Below, piece by piece: positions 32,601-63,392 of a DNA stretch of 64,000 nucleotides. The stretch comes from Verrucomicrobiota bacterium. GTDB taxonomy: Bacteria; Verrucomicrobiota; Verrucomicrobiia; Chthoniobacterales; Terrimicrobiaceae. The notes under the pieces were generated by a model, which was given only the letters and a program-made list of their open reading frames with translations, was not told where the DNA came from and searched no databases. The stretch lies in contig JAPLTG010000031.1 of assembly GCA_026398255.1 (NCBI GenBank), positions 1 to 64,000 of the forward strand, written 5' to 3'. The position numbers were made by a program, and so were the translations under genes. Numbering within the stretch: the first letter of the stretch is position 1; every line of letters begins with the position of its first letter.

Positions 32601-35600
32601 TCAGTTCGCGGGTTTGCGAACGGTTCGGAATCCGGTTTCTGGCGTCCGTTTGTTTGGGTAGTTGAAATCGGAAACGGAAACGGAGCAGTCGAAGGATTGA
32701 TCTCCAGCCCCGCCGCCACGCACGCGGCGGTAGTCCTTGTGGGCATCCCATACCCACTCGCGGGCATTGCCGCTCATGTCGTGAACTCCAAGTTCGTTTG
32801 GCAATTTGCCGGCGACGGGTTTTGTTTTTTCTTTCCCGCTGTTGCTTGCAAACCACGCCACGGTGTTGGGGTCATTGGCTCCGCTGTAGCTACTGCCTTT
32901 GGATGCGGCGCCGCCACGAGCGGCCCATTCCCACTCGGTCTCGGTGGGGAGGCGGTAACCATCGGCACCGGGTGCCAGAGAGGGGGCGGTTTCGCCAGAT
33001 TTAAAAACTTTGCCGTCGATGACATAGGCCGGTTGGAGACCTTCGAGTTCGCTGCGGAGGTTGCACCATTTGATGGCATCAAACCAACTGACATTGGTGA
33101 CTGGGTGGGCGTCATCCGGAGCATTGCCGACCTTGCCGATGTCGTAACCGCGGGCGTCAGCTTGCGTCTGGATTTTTTTCCATTCGGCCAAGGTCACCTC
33201 GGTGCGATCGATGACAAACTGGCCGACGGGTTGTTTTCCAAGGGGCGAGGTGATGGGTAGTTCGCCGCCACTGACCAAAACCCCCGAGCCGGACGGGGCG
33301 GGCGATTCGGCTTGGGGTTGAGGAGTTGGCTCGGGTGTTGGAGCGGGCGTCGGTGAAGGCGCCGGAGTGGGCGTGGGTTCAGGCGTTGGAGTTGGTGCGG
33401 GAGTCGGGGAAGATTCGGGCGTGGGAGTGGGTGCTGGAGTTGGATCCTTAACGAGCAGCGTAAAATCCTTGGTTGTCGAGGTCATTTTGGAATCGATCGC
33501 CACAATGCGAACCGAGAAAGAGCCGCCGGCTTCTGGAGTGCCGAGGATTCCAGCCTCTCCGAGAGTGAGTCCGGGCGCGAGGGCTGTGCCGGGTTCGATT
33601 CCGAGTGTGACGGGAGGAATTCCCCCGGAGGTTTCGACTTTTTGACTGTAGGGCACTCCTTTTTTACCCGGGGGCAGTGTTGCGGTTTCGATTTTTAATT
33701 CCCCGGCACTGACAACGATGGATCCGTTGCGTGTGGCTGAGAGGCGATTGGCGTCGGTGACTTTGAAGGTGATGGGGAACTCTCCAGTGGTTTGAGGTTT
33801 TCCGGTGAGTGAGCCGCTTTGCGACTTGAGGAGGATGCCGACTGGGAGTTTGCCCTCGATTTTCCAAACATAAGGGGGCTTGCCGCCATTGGCTGAGAGC
33901 GTGACGGCGAGAGTTTGGTCGTATTTTGCCGTGATCGGGGCAGCGAGCGTCTCGGAGACATGCAGGTCGTAGGCGGAAACGGAGAGGTCGATTTTTGTTT
34001 CGGTGGATTCTTCCCGGGAGTCGGTCGCGACAAGGAGGGATGAGAAGTTTCCAGGCTCCGCTGGTTTTCCTTCAATTGCCCCCTTGGTGCCGGTGAAGTC
34101 GAGTTCCATGCCCGGTGGCAGCGTGCTGCCTTCTTTAAGCTTCAGTGAGTAAGGCGGCACTCCGCCTTGGATCGCGAAGGTTCGGCGGGTTGCGAGGCCG
34201 GATGTGGCCAGCTGGGATTCGGTGGCATCGACGACGATTTGGAGTGGGTCGGCGGTGATGACGAGTTTGCCATCGGTCGCCGCCGAGATGTTGTTCGAGT
34301 CGGTGACTTTTAGGGTGATTGGAAAATCGCCGGTGGTGTAGGGGGTTCCATCCAGCTTTCCGGAGGAACTGCTGAGCCAAGTCCCATTCGGGAGCGGGCC
34401 GGTGATCGACCATCTGTAAGGCGGTTTGCCGCCAGTGGCTGTGAGCGGAACATCAAGCGTCTGCCTGAATTTACCAATGAGCTTTTGGGTGGACTCGGGG
34501 GCGATGGTGAGGTCGTAGGCTCCAAAGGTCAACGAGGCTTGCAGGGGGGCTTTTCCGCCCAGCGAGTCGGTGGCCTCGAGCGAGATCGGGAAGGTTCCGT
34601 TCGCGGCAGGTTTGCCCGAGACTTTGCCGGTTGCGCCGGAGACTGAGGCGGAAAGCCCTTCCGGGAGGGTGGTATCGGTGGCTGGTTTCAGCGAGTAGGG
34701 AGGCACTCCACCGGCGAGGGTGATGTTCCAAGTGTAGGCAAGACCGGCGACTCCGGCGGGCGGCTCGGGAGTTTCCGGAGTGAGGCGCAGGGGAGCGGTG
34801 GTGATCTCGATGGTGGCATTCAGGGAGACGATGATGTTTTTCACATCCGACACCTTGATGATGATGGGGAATTTTCCGGCAGCGGTGGGTTTGCCGGAGA
34901 AGGTCCCGGTGAGCGCCTTCACGCTCAGGCCAGGCGGGACCTTGCCGACAACAGCCCAGTAGTAGGGAGGGCGGCCGCCGGTGGCGTTGAAGGTGATCGT
35001 GTAATCCTCGAGATATTTGGCGGCGAGTTGATCAGGGGACGGTTCGGTGATCGCGAGACTGTATGGAGCTACGGAAATCTCGGCTGGCAGGGAGGTGGTG
35101 GTATTGAGGGAATCAGAGGCTTCCAGGGTCACGGAGAAATTTCCGGGTTCGGTGGGGATTCCAGTGATTCGCGCGGTGGATCCGCTATTGGAAATGGTGA
35201 GGCCTTTCGGGAGGGTGGATCCTTCGGCGAGTTTCACCGAGTAGGGCGGCACGCCGCCGGTGAGTGAGAAGCTCCGGGAGAATTCCATATTCACATTGCC
35301 GGATGCGGGGTTTTCAGGGCTGGCTGTGATTTGGATGGGCACCACGGAGATGGTCAAAGGAACCACACGAAACGCCTCAAAACCTTTCGCGTCACGGAGG
35401 CGTAGAACGATATTTGTCGTGCCTCCGATCAAGGGCTTTCCGGTGAGTTCACCAAGTTGGGGGTCGAGGTTGAGCCCGCGCGGGAGCTTGCCGACGGTGT
35501 TCCAGCGATATGGAGAGGAACCGCCTATCGCGGCGAAGGCTACGGAGAGGGGTTCGTTGTATTTTGCGGCGATTGCGGCGGGTTCGGGATCGATCGCGAG

Positions 35601-37409
35601 GCCGTAAGGAGTGACTCGCAGGATGAATTCTCGCTCGATGGAATTTTTCACAGGATTGGAGGAATCCGTGGCGACGAGGGTGAGGCGGAAGTCGCCTGCG
35701 GCTTTTGGCGCGCCTTGGATTTCGCCATCTTTGAACTCCAATCCCTCGGGGAGTTTTGTGCCTGGCTTGAGGGTGACGGCGTAGGGAGATTTCCCGCCGG
35801 CGAGTTCGATTTTCGCTGTGTAATCCATGCCGCTGGTGGCATTGGGCAGCGTGGCATGGGTGGAAAAATCCAGGGCGGGTTCTGCGGGTGGTTGCTGGGC
35901 GAGCAGGGAAGCGTCTGCGAGATTGCGGGCCATGCGGAAGCCGAGGAAATCGAACTTGTTTTCGGGTCCATTGAAACTCCGGCGAGACACCTCGCAATCG
36001 GCGGGTGAGCCGAACCAAGCTCCGCCACGGACTCGGCGCGAACCGCCATCTGCCTCGTCCCAGCACCACTCGGCGACATTGCCGCTCATGTCATAAATCC
36101 CGAGTTCGTTCGGCTTTTTCGTTCCGACCGGGGCGGTGCCGCGACCATCGACCAAATCCTCACCCGCCGCCGCGGAATTTTCCCAATACCATGCCACGGC
36201 GTCGACATCCTCGCCGCCGCTGAAGCGCCAGCGCTCCGACCATTCGGTCAGTTCGGCGGGAGCATTTGCATCCAATTCCTTCCCGCCGCTGATGGTGGCC
36301 CCGACGGACTTTATTCCGCCGCGCGCGGCCCATTCCCACTCGATTTCCGTGGGTAGTCGGTAGCCATTCGCTTCGGGGTTTGCAACGGGGGTGGCAACGC
36401 CTGAACGGTAGATTTCGCCATTTCCTGCGTAGACCGGTTGGAGATTTTCCTGCTGGCTGCGGGCGTTGCAAAATTTGACCGCGTCGTGCCATGTGATGTG
36501 GCGCACGGGGCGGTTTGGAGTCGCGCCTTCCGGGGCGGCGGGAAGGTCGTAACCATTTTTTACTGCGAATTCGCGCAGGGCATTCCATTCGCCCCAGGTC
36601 ACCTCATGCGTGCCGATGTGAAAGGTTTTCACCTCCGTGCCAGCGAAGGCCGAGCCTTGCGGAAGTTGTCCTGTGAGAACAGTCGCCATTCCCCTTGGAG
36701 CGGGCAGGGGGGCTGCGGCGGTTCCGGTAATCTCCAAGGCGGTCGTTCCTTGGCCGAGAGAGAGATTCACGGTGACTTGGCCTGAGTAGGTCTTGGGCTC
36801 CTTGGGTGAAAAAACCAGCGGGACTTTTTGTTCCTGACCCGGCTCGATCTGGCCGCTGAAAGATCCAGTGAATCCCTCGGGGCACGAGATGGCGTTGACG
36901 GCGAGCGGGGCGTTGCCGGTGTTGCGCAGAATGAACGCGCCGGTCGCCTTTTCGCCCACGGGGATTTGGTCAAAGGGCGTTTCTTTGGAGAGTTCGAGGA
37001 TTCCGGATAACTCCTTCGCGGTGCCAGTCGCAGGGACTTCAAGTTTGCCGCCATTCGATGTGAGGACGAGAGCACCTTGCAGGCTGCCAGGTTTGGTGGG
37101 GGAAAATTTGACATTGATCACCAGTGTGCCGTTGGGCTCCACCGTCGCGGGTTTGTCGTGGCCCGAGAGACTTTCCGGATACGAAATCGCGGAGATCACC
37201 AGAGGAGCGGTCCCCGTATTTTTAACGGTTAACGCTTTCGAGGCTGTTTCGCCAACGGCGACATCCGAAAAATCCAAGGAGCCCTCGATTTTACCAATCG
37301 GTGCCGGAGCGGGTTGCTGGGGAACGGGCGTCTCCGGTTTCTTGGCATCGCAAGAAGTGGAGAGCGCGAAGAAGGCTACAAATAACGGGAGGCAAGCAAA
37401 ATGGCGCAT
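32601..37409 (-). CDS. Secreted multidomain protein: two SUMF1-like domains around nine Ig-like repeats
   Basis: 1602 residues. Signal peptide residues 1-20 (FALSTSC may be lipidated, though the lipobox is imperfect). Two ASH-like modules (about 38-235, ...FSDVAVGETASKALTVKNTG and its second copy). A first SUMF1/FGE-like domain (about 240-500). Nine He_PIG Ig-like repeats (about 510-1320) of two alternating types. A Pro/Thr-rich linker (about 1320-1375). A second SUMF1/FGE-like domain (1376-1602). In FGE enzymes two cysteines follow RGG; here the first is lost in both copies (RGGAWFGSPADC and RGGGAGDQSFDC) while the second remains, so sulfatase-type activation is unlikely. Probably a cell-surface binding protein. 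Confidence 0.88.
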   Translation of the reverse strand: MRHFACLPLFVAFFALSTSCDAKKPETPVPQQPAPAPIGKIEGSLDFSDVAVGETASKALTVKNTGTAPLVISAISYPESLSGHDKPATVEPNGTLVINVKFSPTKPGSLQGALVLTSNGGKLEVPATGTAKELSGILELSKETPFDQIPVGEKATGAFILRNTGNAPLAVNAISCPEGFTGSFSGQIEPGQEQKVPLVFSPKEPKTYSGQVTVNLSLGQGTTALEITGTAAAPLPAPRGMATVLTGQLPQGSAFAGTEVKTFHIGTHEVTWGEWNALREFAVKNGYDLPAAPEGATPNRPVRHITWHDAVKFCNARSQQENLQPVYAGNGEIYRSGVATPVANPEANGYRLPTEIEWEWAARGGIKSVGATISGGKELDANAPAELTEWSERWRFSGGEDVDAVAWYWENSAAAGEDLVDGRGTAPVGTKKPNELGIYDMSGNVAEWCWDEADGGSRRVRGGAWFGSPADCEVSRRSFNGPENKFDFLGFRMARNLADASLLAQQPPAEPALDFSTHATLPNATSGMDYTAKIELAGGKSPYAVTLKPGTKLPEGLEFKDGEIQGAPKAAGDFRLTLVATDSSNPVKNSIEREFILRVTPYGLAIDPEPAAIAAKYNEPLSVAFAAIGGSSPYRWNTVGKLPRGLNLDPQLGELTGKPLIGGTTNIVLRLRDAKGFEAFRVVPLTISVVPIQITASPENPASGNVNMEFSRSFSLTGGVPPYSVKLAEGSTLPKGLTISNSGSTARITGIPTEPGNFSVTLEASDSLNTTTSLPAEISVAPYSLAITEPSPDQLAAKYLEDYTITFNATGGRPPYYWAVVGKVPPGLSVKALTGTFSGKPTAAGKFPIIIKVSDVKNIIVSLNATIEITTAPLRLTPETPEPPAGVAGLAYTWNITLAGGVPPYSLKPATDTTLPEGLSASVSGATGKVSGKPAANGTFPISLEATDSLGGKAPLQASLTFGAYDLTIAPESTQKLIGKFRQTLDVPLTATGGKPPYRWSITGPLPNGTWLSSSSGKLDGTPYTTGDFPITLKVTDSNNISAATDGKLVITADPLQIVVDATESQLATSGLATRRTFAIQGGVPPYSLKLKEGSTLPPGMELDFTGTKGAIEGKPAEPGNFSSLLVATDSREESTETKIDLSVSAYDLHVSETLAAPITAKYDQTLAVTLSANGGKPPYVWKIEGKLPVGILLKSQSGSLTGKPQTTGEFPITFKVTDANRLSATRNGSIVVSAGELKIETATLPPGKKGVPYSQKVETSGGIPPVTLGIEPGTALAPGLTLGEAGILGTPEAGGSFSVRIVAIDSKMTSTTKDFTLLVKDPTPAPTPTPESSPTPAPTPTPEPTPTPAPSPTPAPTPEPTPQPQAESPAPSGSGVLVSGGELPITSPLGKQPVGQFVIDRTEVTLAEWKKIQTQADARGYDIGKVGNAPDDAHPVTNVSWFDAIKWCNLRSELEGLQPAYVIDGKVFKSGETAPSLAPGADGYRLPTETEWEWAARGGAASKGSSYSGANDPNTVAWFASNSGKEKTKPVAGKLPNELGVHDMSGNAREWVWDAHKDYRRVRGGGAGDQSFDCSVSVSDFNYPNKRTPETGFRTVRKPAN

Positions 37410-38358: not shown

Positions 38359-38565
38359 ATGCCGGAAGTATTAGTTAGAAAAGGTGAACCAATCGACCGC
38401 GCTCTCAAGAGATTGAAGGGCAAGATCGACGCGGAGGGATTGATGGATGAAGTCCGTCGACTCCGTGCTTTCGAAACTCCCGTTCAGCGCGTGCGCCGCA
38501 AAGCGAAAAACAACGCCAAGCGTGCCAAGCTGAAGATTCGTTTCAATTTCAACCCACAGGGCTAA
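38359..38565 (+). CDS. rpsU: 30S ribosomal protein S21
   Basis: A 68-residue basic protein of the small subunit, assembling near the anti-Shine-Dalgarno. The core EVLVRKGEPIDRALKRLK and the basic C-terminal stretch VRRKAKNNAKRAKLKIRF identify it. A good Shine-Dalgarno (AGGTGA) precedes it. The stop at 38563-38565 is directly followed by a TTG that would start the next frame, so no spacer exists between the two genes. Confidence 0.94.
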   Translation: MPEVLVRKGEPIDRALKRLKGKIDAEGLMDEVRRLRAFETPVQRVRRKAKNNAKRAKLKIRFNFNPQG

Positions 38566-39414
38566 TTGCAGCCTAAACGGGTAGTTCTTGCCGGCTGCGG
38601 CTTCCTTGGGGAGGTCGCAGCCGGTTTGTTTTTTAAGAATGGCTGGGAGGCTCTCGGCCTGTGCGCCACGGCGGGAACCGCTGCCAGACTCGCTTAGCAG
38701 CCGTTTCCGGTTAGCGTGGCGGATATTTCAAAACCTCTCGCGTCTCCCGAGGGGTGGAGCCAGCCGGATTTGTTGATCCACTGTGCAAGCTCCGGAGGCG
38801 GGGATGCGGAGGACTACCGCGCGGTGTATCGCGATGGGCTGCAAAATTTGATCGCGGCCTTTGCGCCAGGTAGGGTGATTTTTACGGGTAGCACCTCGGT
38901 CTATGACCAGCAAAACGAGGAGGTCGTGGATGAAAACTCACCCACCGAACCGCTCCGCGAAACCGCGCGAGTCCTTCTCGAAGCCGAGGCCGTCGCGCTC
39001 CGAGCAGGGGGAATTGTGGCCCGACTTGGGGGAATTTACGGGCCGGGGCGGTCGATGTTTTTGCGGAAATTCGCCGAAGGCAGTGCGGTGGTGGAAGCGG
39101 GCGGCGAGCGGTTCATCAACCTGATCCATCGCGAGGACGCCGCTTGTGCCCTCCTGCGGTTGGCCGATCCGCAGGTTCCAGCAGGTGTCTATAATGTCTG
39201 CGACAGTCACCCTCCGACGCAGCGGGAACTTTACGGGTGGATTTCCGAGTTTCTGGGCAAACCCATGCCGCCGGACGGGCCGATCGACCCGCATCGCAAG
39301 CGGGGACTCAACAACAAGCGGGTCTCCAACCAAAAACTCCGAGCGATAGGTTGGGCGCCGGAGTTTCCGTCTTTCCGAGAGGCTTTGCCGTCGCTGGTGC
39401 GCGAGGGGTTTTAG
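38566..39414 (+). pseudogene. NAD-dependent epimerase-like protein interrupted by an in-frame amber codon
   Basis: A continuous frame begins at TTG 38566 immediately after the rpsU stop and encodes a Rossmann N-terminus (RVVLAGCGFLGEVAAGLFF, GxGxxG pattern) and GWEALGLCATAGTAARLA. At 38695-38697 the codon is TAG, after which the same frame continues to 39414 through IHCASSGGGD, FTGSTSVYDQQNEEVVDE and the family motifs of SDR epimerases of the YeeZ type. Without the TAG the product would be 282 residues, a normal length. A GTG at 38716 could start the remainder, but that form lacks the NAD-binding loop. Most likely a recent nonsense mutation, a sequence error, or readthrough. Confidence 0.7.
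38591..38634 (+). terminator. Terminator-like hairpin after rpsU, overlapping the epimerase frame
   Basis: Perfect 9-bp arms CCGGCTGCG (38591-38599) and CGCAGCCGG (38616-38624) with a 16-base loop, followed by tttgtttttt (38625-38634). It lies 26 bases after the rpsU stop. It is encoded within the Rossmann loop of the epimerase frame, so it could limit transcription of that gene. It may be chance, since the palindrome also encodes conserved residues. Confidence 0.6.
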
Positions 39415-62126: not shown

Positions 62127-63392
62127 TCATCGGCAAAACTTGCAGGCTGTTTGCGCCGCGAGGGTCCCCGTGGCGAAGCAGGCCTGGAGCAGAAATCCGC
62201 CCGTCGGAGCCTCCCAATCGATCATCTCCCCAGCCACAAAAAGCTCCGGAATTTTTTTCACCATCAAATCCTCGGTGAGTTCCTCCCAACGAAAGCCACC
62301 CGCACTCGAGATGGCTTCGGCAATCGGTCTCGGGCCTTTGAGAGTGATCACGCAATTCTTTGCCTCGCGGGCGAGCGATGGCGCGTCTTTCCATTCTTTA
62401 CGGGCGAGTAGGGCGCAGGCGGCATCACCAAGTTTCCAGCGCAGACGAGCGTCTGAAGCAAAACTCCGACGCACGGATTCCATTTTAGCCACGAGTTGAT
62501 CGACAGAGTGGGCCGGCTTGAGATCGATCGAAATGGCGGGAGCATCCATCGTGCGCAGCGCCGAGCCGAGCGCGTATAGCGGCCCGCCTTCCAGCCCGTA
62601 GCGCGTGAGGATCAGTTCGCCCGAGGCGGATTTTTCTCCGGCGGTGACGCGGATGTTTTTGAGAGGCTTCCCCTCGGCGGCTTGGAGGACTTCGGGAGGC
62701 CAGTCGTGCTCCCAGCCACAATTCGCCGGGGCGAGGGGACGCGTTGCGAGGCCGAGCTTTTCGAAAAGTGGGAACCACCGGCCATCCGAGCCCGTTTCCG
62801 GCCAAGAGCCGCCTCCGAGGGCAAGGATCACGGCATCAGCTTCGGTGCGGGCGCCATTTTCAAAAACGAGTTGGAATGGTCCACCGGGCTTAAGATCCAC
62901 GAGCCGGTGATTCGTCTGAAAAACCACGCCTATCTCGCGCAGACGCGCCACCCAGCGCCGAAGCAGGCCAGCGGCCTTGAGGTCCTTCAAATAAACCCGT
63001 CCGCTTTTTGTCGCGAAGGTTTCAAATCCCAGTTCCAACGCCCATTCCCGCAGGTCGCCGCTATCAAAAACCTCAAGAACCCCGCGCCAGAAATCCGAAG
63101 TTTTTCCCGAATACCTGTTGGCAATAATCTCCCGCGGCTCGGCATTGGTAAGATTCAACCCGCCCTTCCCCGCGACGAGAAACTTCCTCCCGACCGATCG
63201 CTCGGCGTCGAAAAGAACGACCTTCATCCCCGCCGCCGCACAAACCTCCGCCGCCCGCAGACCAGCAGGCCCGCCACCGACGATCGCGATGCGCTTCGCT
63301 TCGAATATCACTTGGCCGGCACCCAGCGTTTCAAGGCATGACAAGGGGTCGCAGTCGAAAGCCCAAGAGACGAGCGGCTTGGCGCCCGCCAC
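62127..63392 (-). CDS. HI0933/YhiN-like flavoprotein
   Basis: A 421-residue FAD protein. Dinucleotide-binding motif IAIVGGGPAGLRAAEV, then DAERSVGRKFLVAGKGGLNLTN, DAVILALGGGSWPETGSDG, TRYGLEGGPLYALGS and the C-terminal ELFVAGEMIDWEAPTGGFLLQ. Family members bind FAD/NAD(P)H but their substrates are unknown. The start is uncertain: the frame opens at GTG 63392 with no ATG before the Rossmann motif; a GTG at 63311 (VIFEAKRIAIVGGG) is another possibility. Convergent with rlpA. Confidence 0.88.
   Translation of the reverse strand: MAGAKPLVSWAFDCDPLSCLETLGAGQVIFEAKRIAIVGGGPAGLRAAEVCAAAGMKVVLFDAERSVGRKFLVAGKGGLNLTNAEPREIIANRYSGKTSDFWRGVLEVFDSGDLREWALELGFETFATKSGRVYLKDLKAAGLLRRWVARLREIGVVFQTNHRLVDLKPGGPFQLVFENGARTEADAVILALGGGSWPETGSDGRWFPLFEKLGLATRPLAPANCGWEHDWPPEVLQAAEGKPLKNIRVTAGEKSASGELILTRYGLEGGPLYALGSALRTMDAPAISIDLKPAHSVDQLVAKMESVRRSFASDARLRWKLGDAACALLARKEWKDAPSLAREAKNCVITLKGPRPIAEAISSAGGFRWEELTEDLMVKKIPELFVAGEMIDWEAPTGGFLLQACFATGTLAAQTACKFCR

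Follow-up and report, generated by a model that had tools for sequence, protein, structure and literature searches.

An interrupted epimerase frame behind rpsU

The stretch of DNA analysed here (the window, 64,000 nucleotides from a Verrucomicrobiota bacterium) raises the question of why an enzyme frame that is otherwise open should carry an amber codon near its start. The gene could have been broken recently, the base could be wrong, the stop could be suppressed or read through, or translation could begin only behind it. We put the probability at roughly three in four that the codon arose by a recent nonsense mutation in an rpsU-linked SDR/epimerase gene that the cell can do without, which would make the frame an incipient nonsense pseudogene. 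An ordinary, recently broken gene is thus most likely, not a new reading of the genetic code.

The rpsU gene and the epimerase frame, with the features inside it, lie on the forward (+) strand. The gene for ribosomal protein S21, rpsU, was identified at 38359–38565 by its sequence and by matches to PF01165 (E 5.3e-14) and TIGR00030 (E 3.1e-15), and its TAA stop (38563–38565) directly abuts, in the same frame, the TTG codon at 38566. From this TTG a frame of 282 codons plus the stop runs to 39414, where it is closed by a TAG (39412–39414). As the earlier note had correctly described, it passes through a GCGFLG motif (38593–38610), the glycine-rich dinucleotide-binding loop that is common to the aligned relatives, and is broken solely by TAG at 38695–38697 (codon 44). 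The longest uninterrupted remainder was also correctly placed: it starts with GTG at 38716, extends to 39414 and encodes 232 amino acids, so that the NAD-binding loop would be lost together with the rest of the initial 50 residues.

The portion downstream of the amber codon matches the Epimerase model PF01370 with 27.5 bits (curated cut-off 20.9), and the whole read-through frame reaches 31.3 bits against the same cut-off. The nearest solved structure is PDB 3gpi, an NAD-dependent epimerase/dehydratase, to which the downstream portion alone aligns over residues 48–280 (E 3e-24); counting the amber codon as an amino acid extends the alignment to residues 4–280 (E 2e-28). Because the match lengthens once the portion preceding the stop is added, the two parts belong to one gene, one that resembles 3gpi over its whole length and differs from it in being interrupted at codon 44. 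The GxxGxxG loop near the N-terminus is present as AGCGFLGE (residues 9–16) in the window frame and in the relatives, 5′ of the stop. The classical YxxxK pair is absent from the window frame, where STSVYDQQNEE has no Lys four residues past the Tyr; the aligned 3gpi stretch, VYGQEVEE, likewise has no Lys at that place. Many 'atypical' SDRs are missing the YxxxK pair, and in this respect the window enzyme resembles an atypical SDR more than a classical one.

The amber codon in relatives

A search of 39 genomes, the window's own included, gave some match at E ≤1e-3 in 38 of them and a strong match (E <1e-50) in 35, again counting its own. One genome (G005) holds a gene fragment only, at a contig edge, and no strong gene match was found in G004, G016 or G025. 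The nearest relative among the genomes searched is a sister species (G015, locus L031), represented by contig CALFPA010000023.1 from a metagenome-assembled genome (MAG) of an uncultured Spartobacteria. Its alignment with the window is free of gaps over 1600 bases, with 94% identity in DNA and 91% in protein. At the position of the amber codon the sister species has a serine codon, and its 282-residue frame is fully open. This sister genome also contains dispersed short repeats of ~80 and ~40 bases (for example, L147:7979-8059 and L147:10750-10793), present in many copies and in both orientations.

None of the 33 aligned relatives, the sister species among them, has an internal stop in the frame, so the amber codon, which the earlier note had proposed to look for in sister strains, is not shared by any of them. 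Stops flagged within the match at two loci, L011 (one TAA) and L020 (one TAG), were judged by eye to be the normal termination codons of these genes, beyond which the match extends. In the alignment column of the amber codon the 33 rows hold Gly (19), Asp (3), Ala (3), Arg (2), Thr (2), Ser (1, the sister species), Glu (1), Asn (1) and a gap (1). This column is variable and mostly Gly, the position is tolerant, and the suggestion that a Glu, Lys or Gln codon had been lost finds no support: Glu occurs in one of the 33 rows, and Lys and Gln are absent from the tally.

Decoding of the amber codon

Release factor 1 was found above cut-off by a profile search of the window's own genome. The same genome gave 43 tRNA matches, 42 of them above cut-off, and ARAGORN detected no CUA anticodon among those 42; at the single match below cut-off (22.2 bits, C6:37083-37189) ARAGORN finds no tRNA. 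The stops of 24 window genes comprise 10 TAA, 10 TGA and four TAG, the SDR/epimerase gene being one of the four, and TAG is an ordinary terminator here. With release factor 1 present, no CUA tRNA among the 42 and ordinary use of TAG, we reject a change of genetic code or a suppressor tRNA. The suppressed amber entertained by the earlier note therefore has nothing in its favour, the stop also not being conserved.

Low or regulated readthrough, by which a little full-length enzyme would be made, is a separate proposition. The low average dN/dS of the gene (see below) agrees with it, and PMC7918605 describes in-frame stops under purifying selection as widespread in bacteria. The paper also finds that such stops do not last long, with a lifetime comparable to that of polymorphisms within populations, and the stop here is conserved in none of the 33 aligned relatives; together with the tRNA, release factor and TAG counts above, this makes readthrough very improbable.

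Also to be weighed is a useful truncated protein made by reinitiation at GTG 38716, 18 bases past the amber codon. The GTG is there and 232 open codons follow it, but the product would begin without the part equivalent to 3gpi residues 1–47, and hence without the first strand, the helix and the glycine-rich loop of the nucleotide-binding fold. There is no evident purine-rich ribosome-binding stretch ahead of this GTG, and none of the 30 translated relatives among the matches listed starts at this point. The proposal that the gene is expressed only from GTG 38716 is thus hard to credit: the NAD loop would be lost, and no aligned relative is built in this way.

Selection and the age of the stop

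Measured against the sister species, the whole frame has a dN/dS of 0.167 and its portion beyond the stop one of 0.133 (48 synonymous and 23 nonsynonymous differences), and both values fall within the spread seen in the genes nearby. The first 43 codons, up to the stop, differ by one synonymous and three nonsynonymous changes, too few to use. Values this low, which reflect purifying selection averaged over the whole divergence, imply that most of the divergence accrued while the gene was functional, so the stop is young.

The earlier note had seen no other decay in the frame. This holds for stops and frameshifts, as there is no further stop and no gapped codon relative to the sister species, but it overlooked two missense changes. 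Codon 29 (38650–38652) encodes Ala in the window and Val in every relative aligned at that column, and codon 118 (38917–38919) encodes Glu in place of a Gly that is equally constant; both changes (V29A and G118E) fall on the window lineage, at residues invariant in all other aligned rows. Two such changes are the maximum among the 34 rows, a number also reached by L017 and L024, which have much longer branches (0.38 and 0.75); of the rows on short terminal branches, only the window departs from otherwise invariant residues (2 of 38 columns). Its protein branch length is 0.081 versus 0.020 for the sister species, a ratio of ~4.

Amino-acid changes were polarised with 12 outgroups from the same genus, which assigned 13 changes in the gene to the window, three to the sister species and nine to neither. 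Four control genes were treated in the same way. Three of them were fetched by separate searches because most neighbours in the window are not syntenic in the outgroup stretches; for these, close full-length matches within the genus were used (9, 7 and 13 of 16 loci), and own, sister, fragmentary and paralogous matches were left out. Pooled, the controls have seven changes on the window side versus 11 on the sister side, and the contrast with 13:3 gives a Fisher p of 0.017. Synonymous changes in the SDR/epimerase gene are even (18 in the window, 15 in the sister species), and the contrast within the gene, 13:3 for amino-acid versus 18:15 for synonymous changes, gives p 0.11. Five of the 13 window changes fall in residues 190–208, beside a mutation-dense tract, and leaving out residues 190–210 reduces the comparison to 8:3 versus 7:11 (p 0.13). 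In the tract itself, at 39140–39199, the window and the sister species differ at 23 of 60 bases, as against 0–8 in the surrounding 60-base bins of the gene, and from this pattern it looks imported or gene-converted. Overall, the polarised changes give a modest signal, drawn from few changes, that constraint on the window lineage is relaxed, and with the two invariant-residue changes they suggest that decay of the gene has probably already begun.

Sequence error as the main alternative

The main rival to a genuine nonsense mutation is an error of base calling or polishing, or a mixture of strains, in which case the gene would be intact in the organism; we regard this as rather unlikely. A single substitution accounts for the break, the remainder of the frame is open and on average under purifying selection, and the genome is a draft in 44 contigs, all of which fits an error. 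V29A, G118E and the 13 versus 3 changes, on the other hand, are independent, if modest, signs of relaxed constraint, and they weaken this explanation because one wrong base would not yield them.

The quality of the assembly was gauged with 72 genes of the sister species that show coding-like dN/dS, taken from the sister contig and three regions of ~20 kb (~88 kb in total) and checked against the window's own genome. Seven of the 72, the SDR/epimerase gene included, have a stop in that genome before the end of the gene. One of these stops is the second-last codon of its gene (328 of 329), at the C-terminal end, and five were judged by eye, from the translations, to precede the conserved protein, within a start extension or a shadow-like frame. 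The SDR/epimerase gene was accordingly the only one of the 72 judged to have a stop inside a conserved domain; net indels not divisible by three were found in five of the 72. Because one gene in 72 is interrupted in a conserved domain, the assembly does not appear to be generally riddled with false stops, which counts against an error here too. Among bacterial genomes one such gene in 72 is nothing unusual, and it gives no hint of widespread base errors.

A probable young nonsense allele

Of the four options that the earlier note had raised, a recent nonsense mutation is therefore the best supported, given the intact sister species and the 33 relatives without an internal stop, the low dN/dS, and V29A and G118E. 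The frame is interrupted where intact orthologues exist, and the release factor and tRNA searches revealed no alternative decoding of the stop, as expected for a nonsense pseudogene. If the base is taken as correct, translation would start at TTG 38566, beside the S21 stop, and would terminate at the amber codon, leaving a short peptide of 43 residues without a catalytic domain. The full enzyme would be absent, with no product made, and the gene would stand at the onset of decay, with missense changes at two invariant residues.

In-frame stops in bacterial genes are common and short-lived according to PMC7918605. The present case resembles the nonsense pseudogenes and polymorphic stop alleles described there in that a single in-frame TAG interrupts a gene which is otherwise intact and mostly constrained, that this stop is absent from close relatives and that it is presumably short-lived. 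The case differs from those alleles in being known from a single genome and in its extra missense changes at invariant residues, which point to decay and not to readthrough. A bolder proposal is that the amber codon acts as a switch at the level of the population, turning the rpsU-coupled SDR down to readthrough levels in some strains, and that the residue changes are adaptive and not decay; it strikes us as far-fetched.

As many such alleles exist in bacterial genomes, a single lesion carries little weight. It has some value in illustrating how, without reads, a base error can be distinguished from a young nonsense allele that is real, namely by setting polarised amino-acid changes against those of neighbouring control genes. 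The case also points to the SDR gene that stands right behind rpsU throughout the family.

Linkage to rpsU and dispensability

Among the matches listed, rpsU is directly upstream in all 22 loci of the same family (L001-L019, L023, L026, L027) and in two of eight loci outside it (L020, L024). By eye, a TTG in frame lies within ~15 bases of the S21 stop in 21 of the 22 family loci, and a GTG takes its place in L013. With this arrangement, rpsU and the SDR/epimerase gene are probably translationally coupled; a literature search found no paper on rpsU with an epimerase in Spartobacteria.

The window's own genome has a single copy of the gene at E 1e-3. In G016, a member of the same family, rpsU is kept and is followed (L146:1501-1780 for the two together) by only ~60 bases resembling the start of the gene, with a one-base shift within the GCGFLG codons, and then by unrelated sequence. 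When this stretch was aligned pairwise to nine references and compared with 200 shuffles, its score beat all shuffles for six references, tied for two and failed for one. It is a probable remnant of a frameshifted gene, which would represent an independent loss within the family. The assemblies of G004 and G025 contain neither rpsU nor the SDR/epimerase gene, and the absence of both may reflect incomplete assembly.

Elsewhere in the window, an open frame of 1602 amino acids at 32601–37409 contains motifs that recur, among them GGKPPY and GGVPPYSLK, along with a (TPEP)n-like linker. It evolves faster than its neighbours apart from 62127–63392 (dN/dS 0.19).
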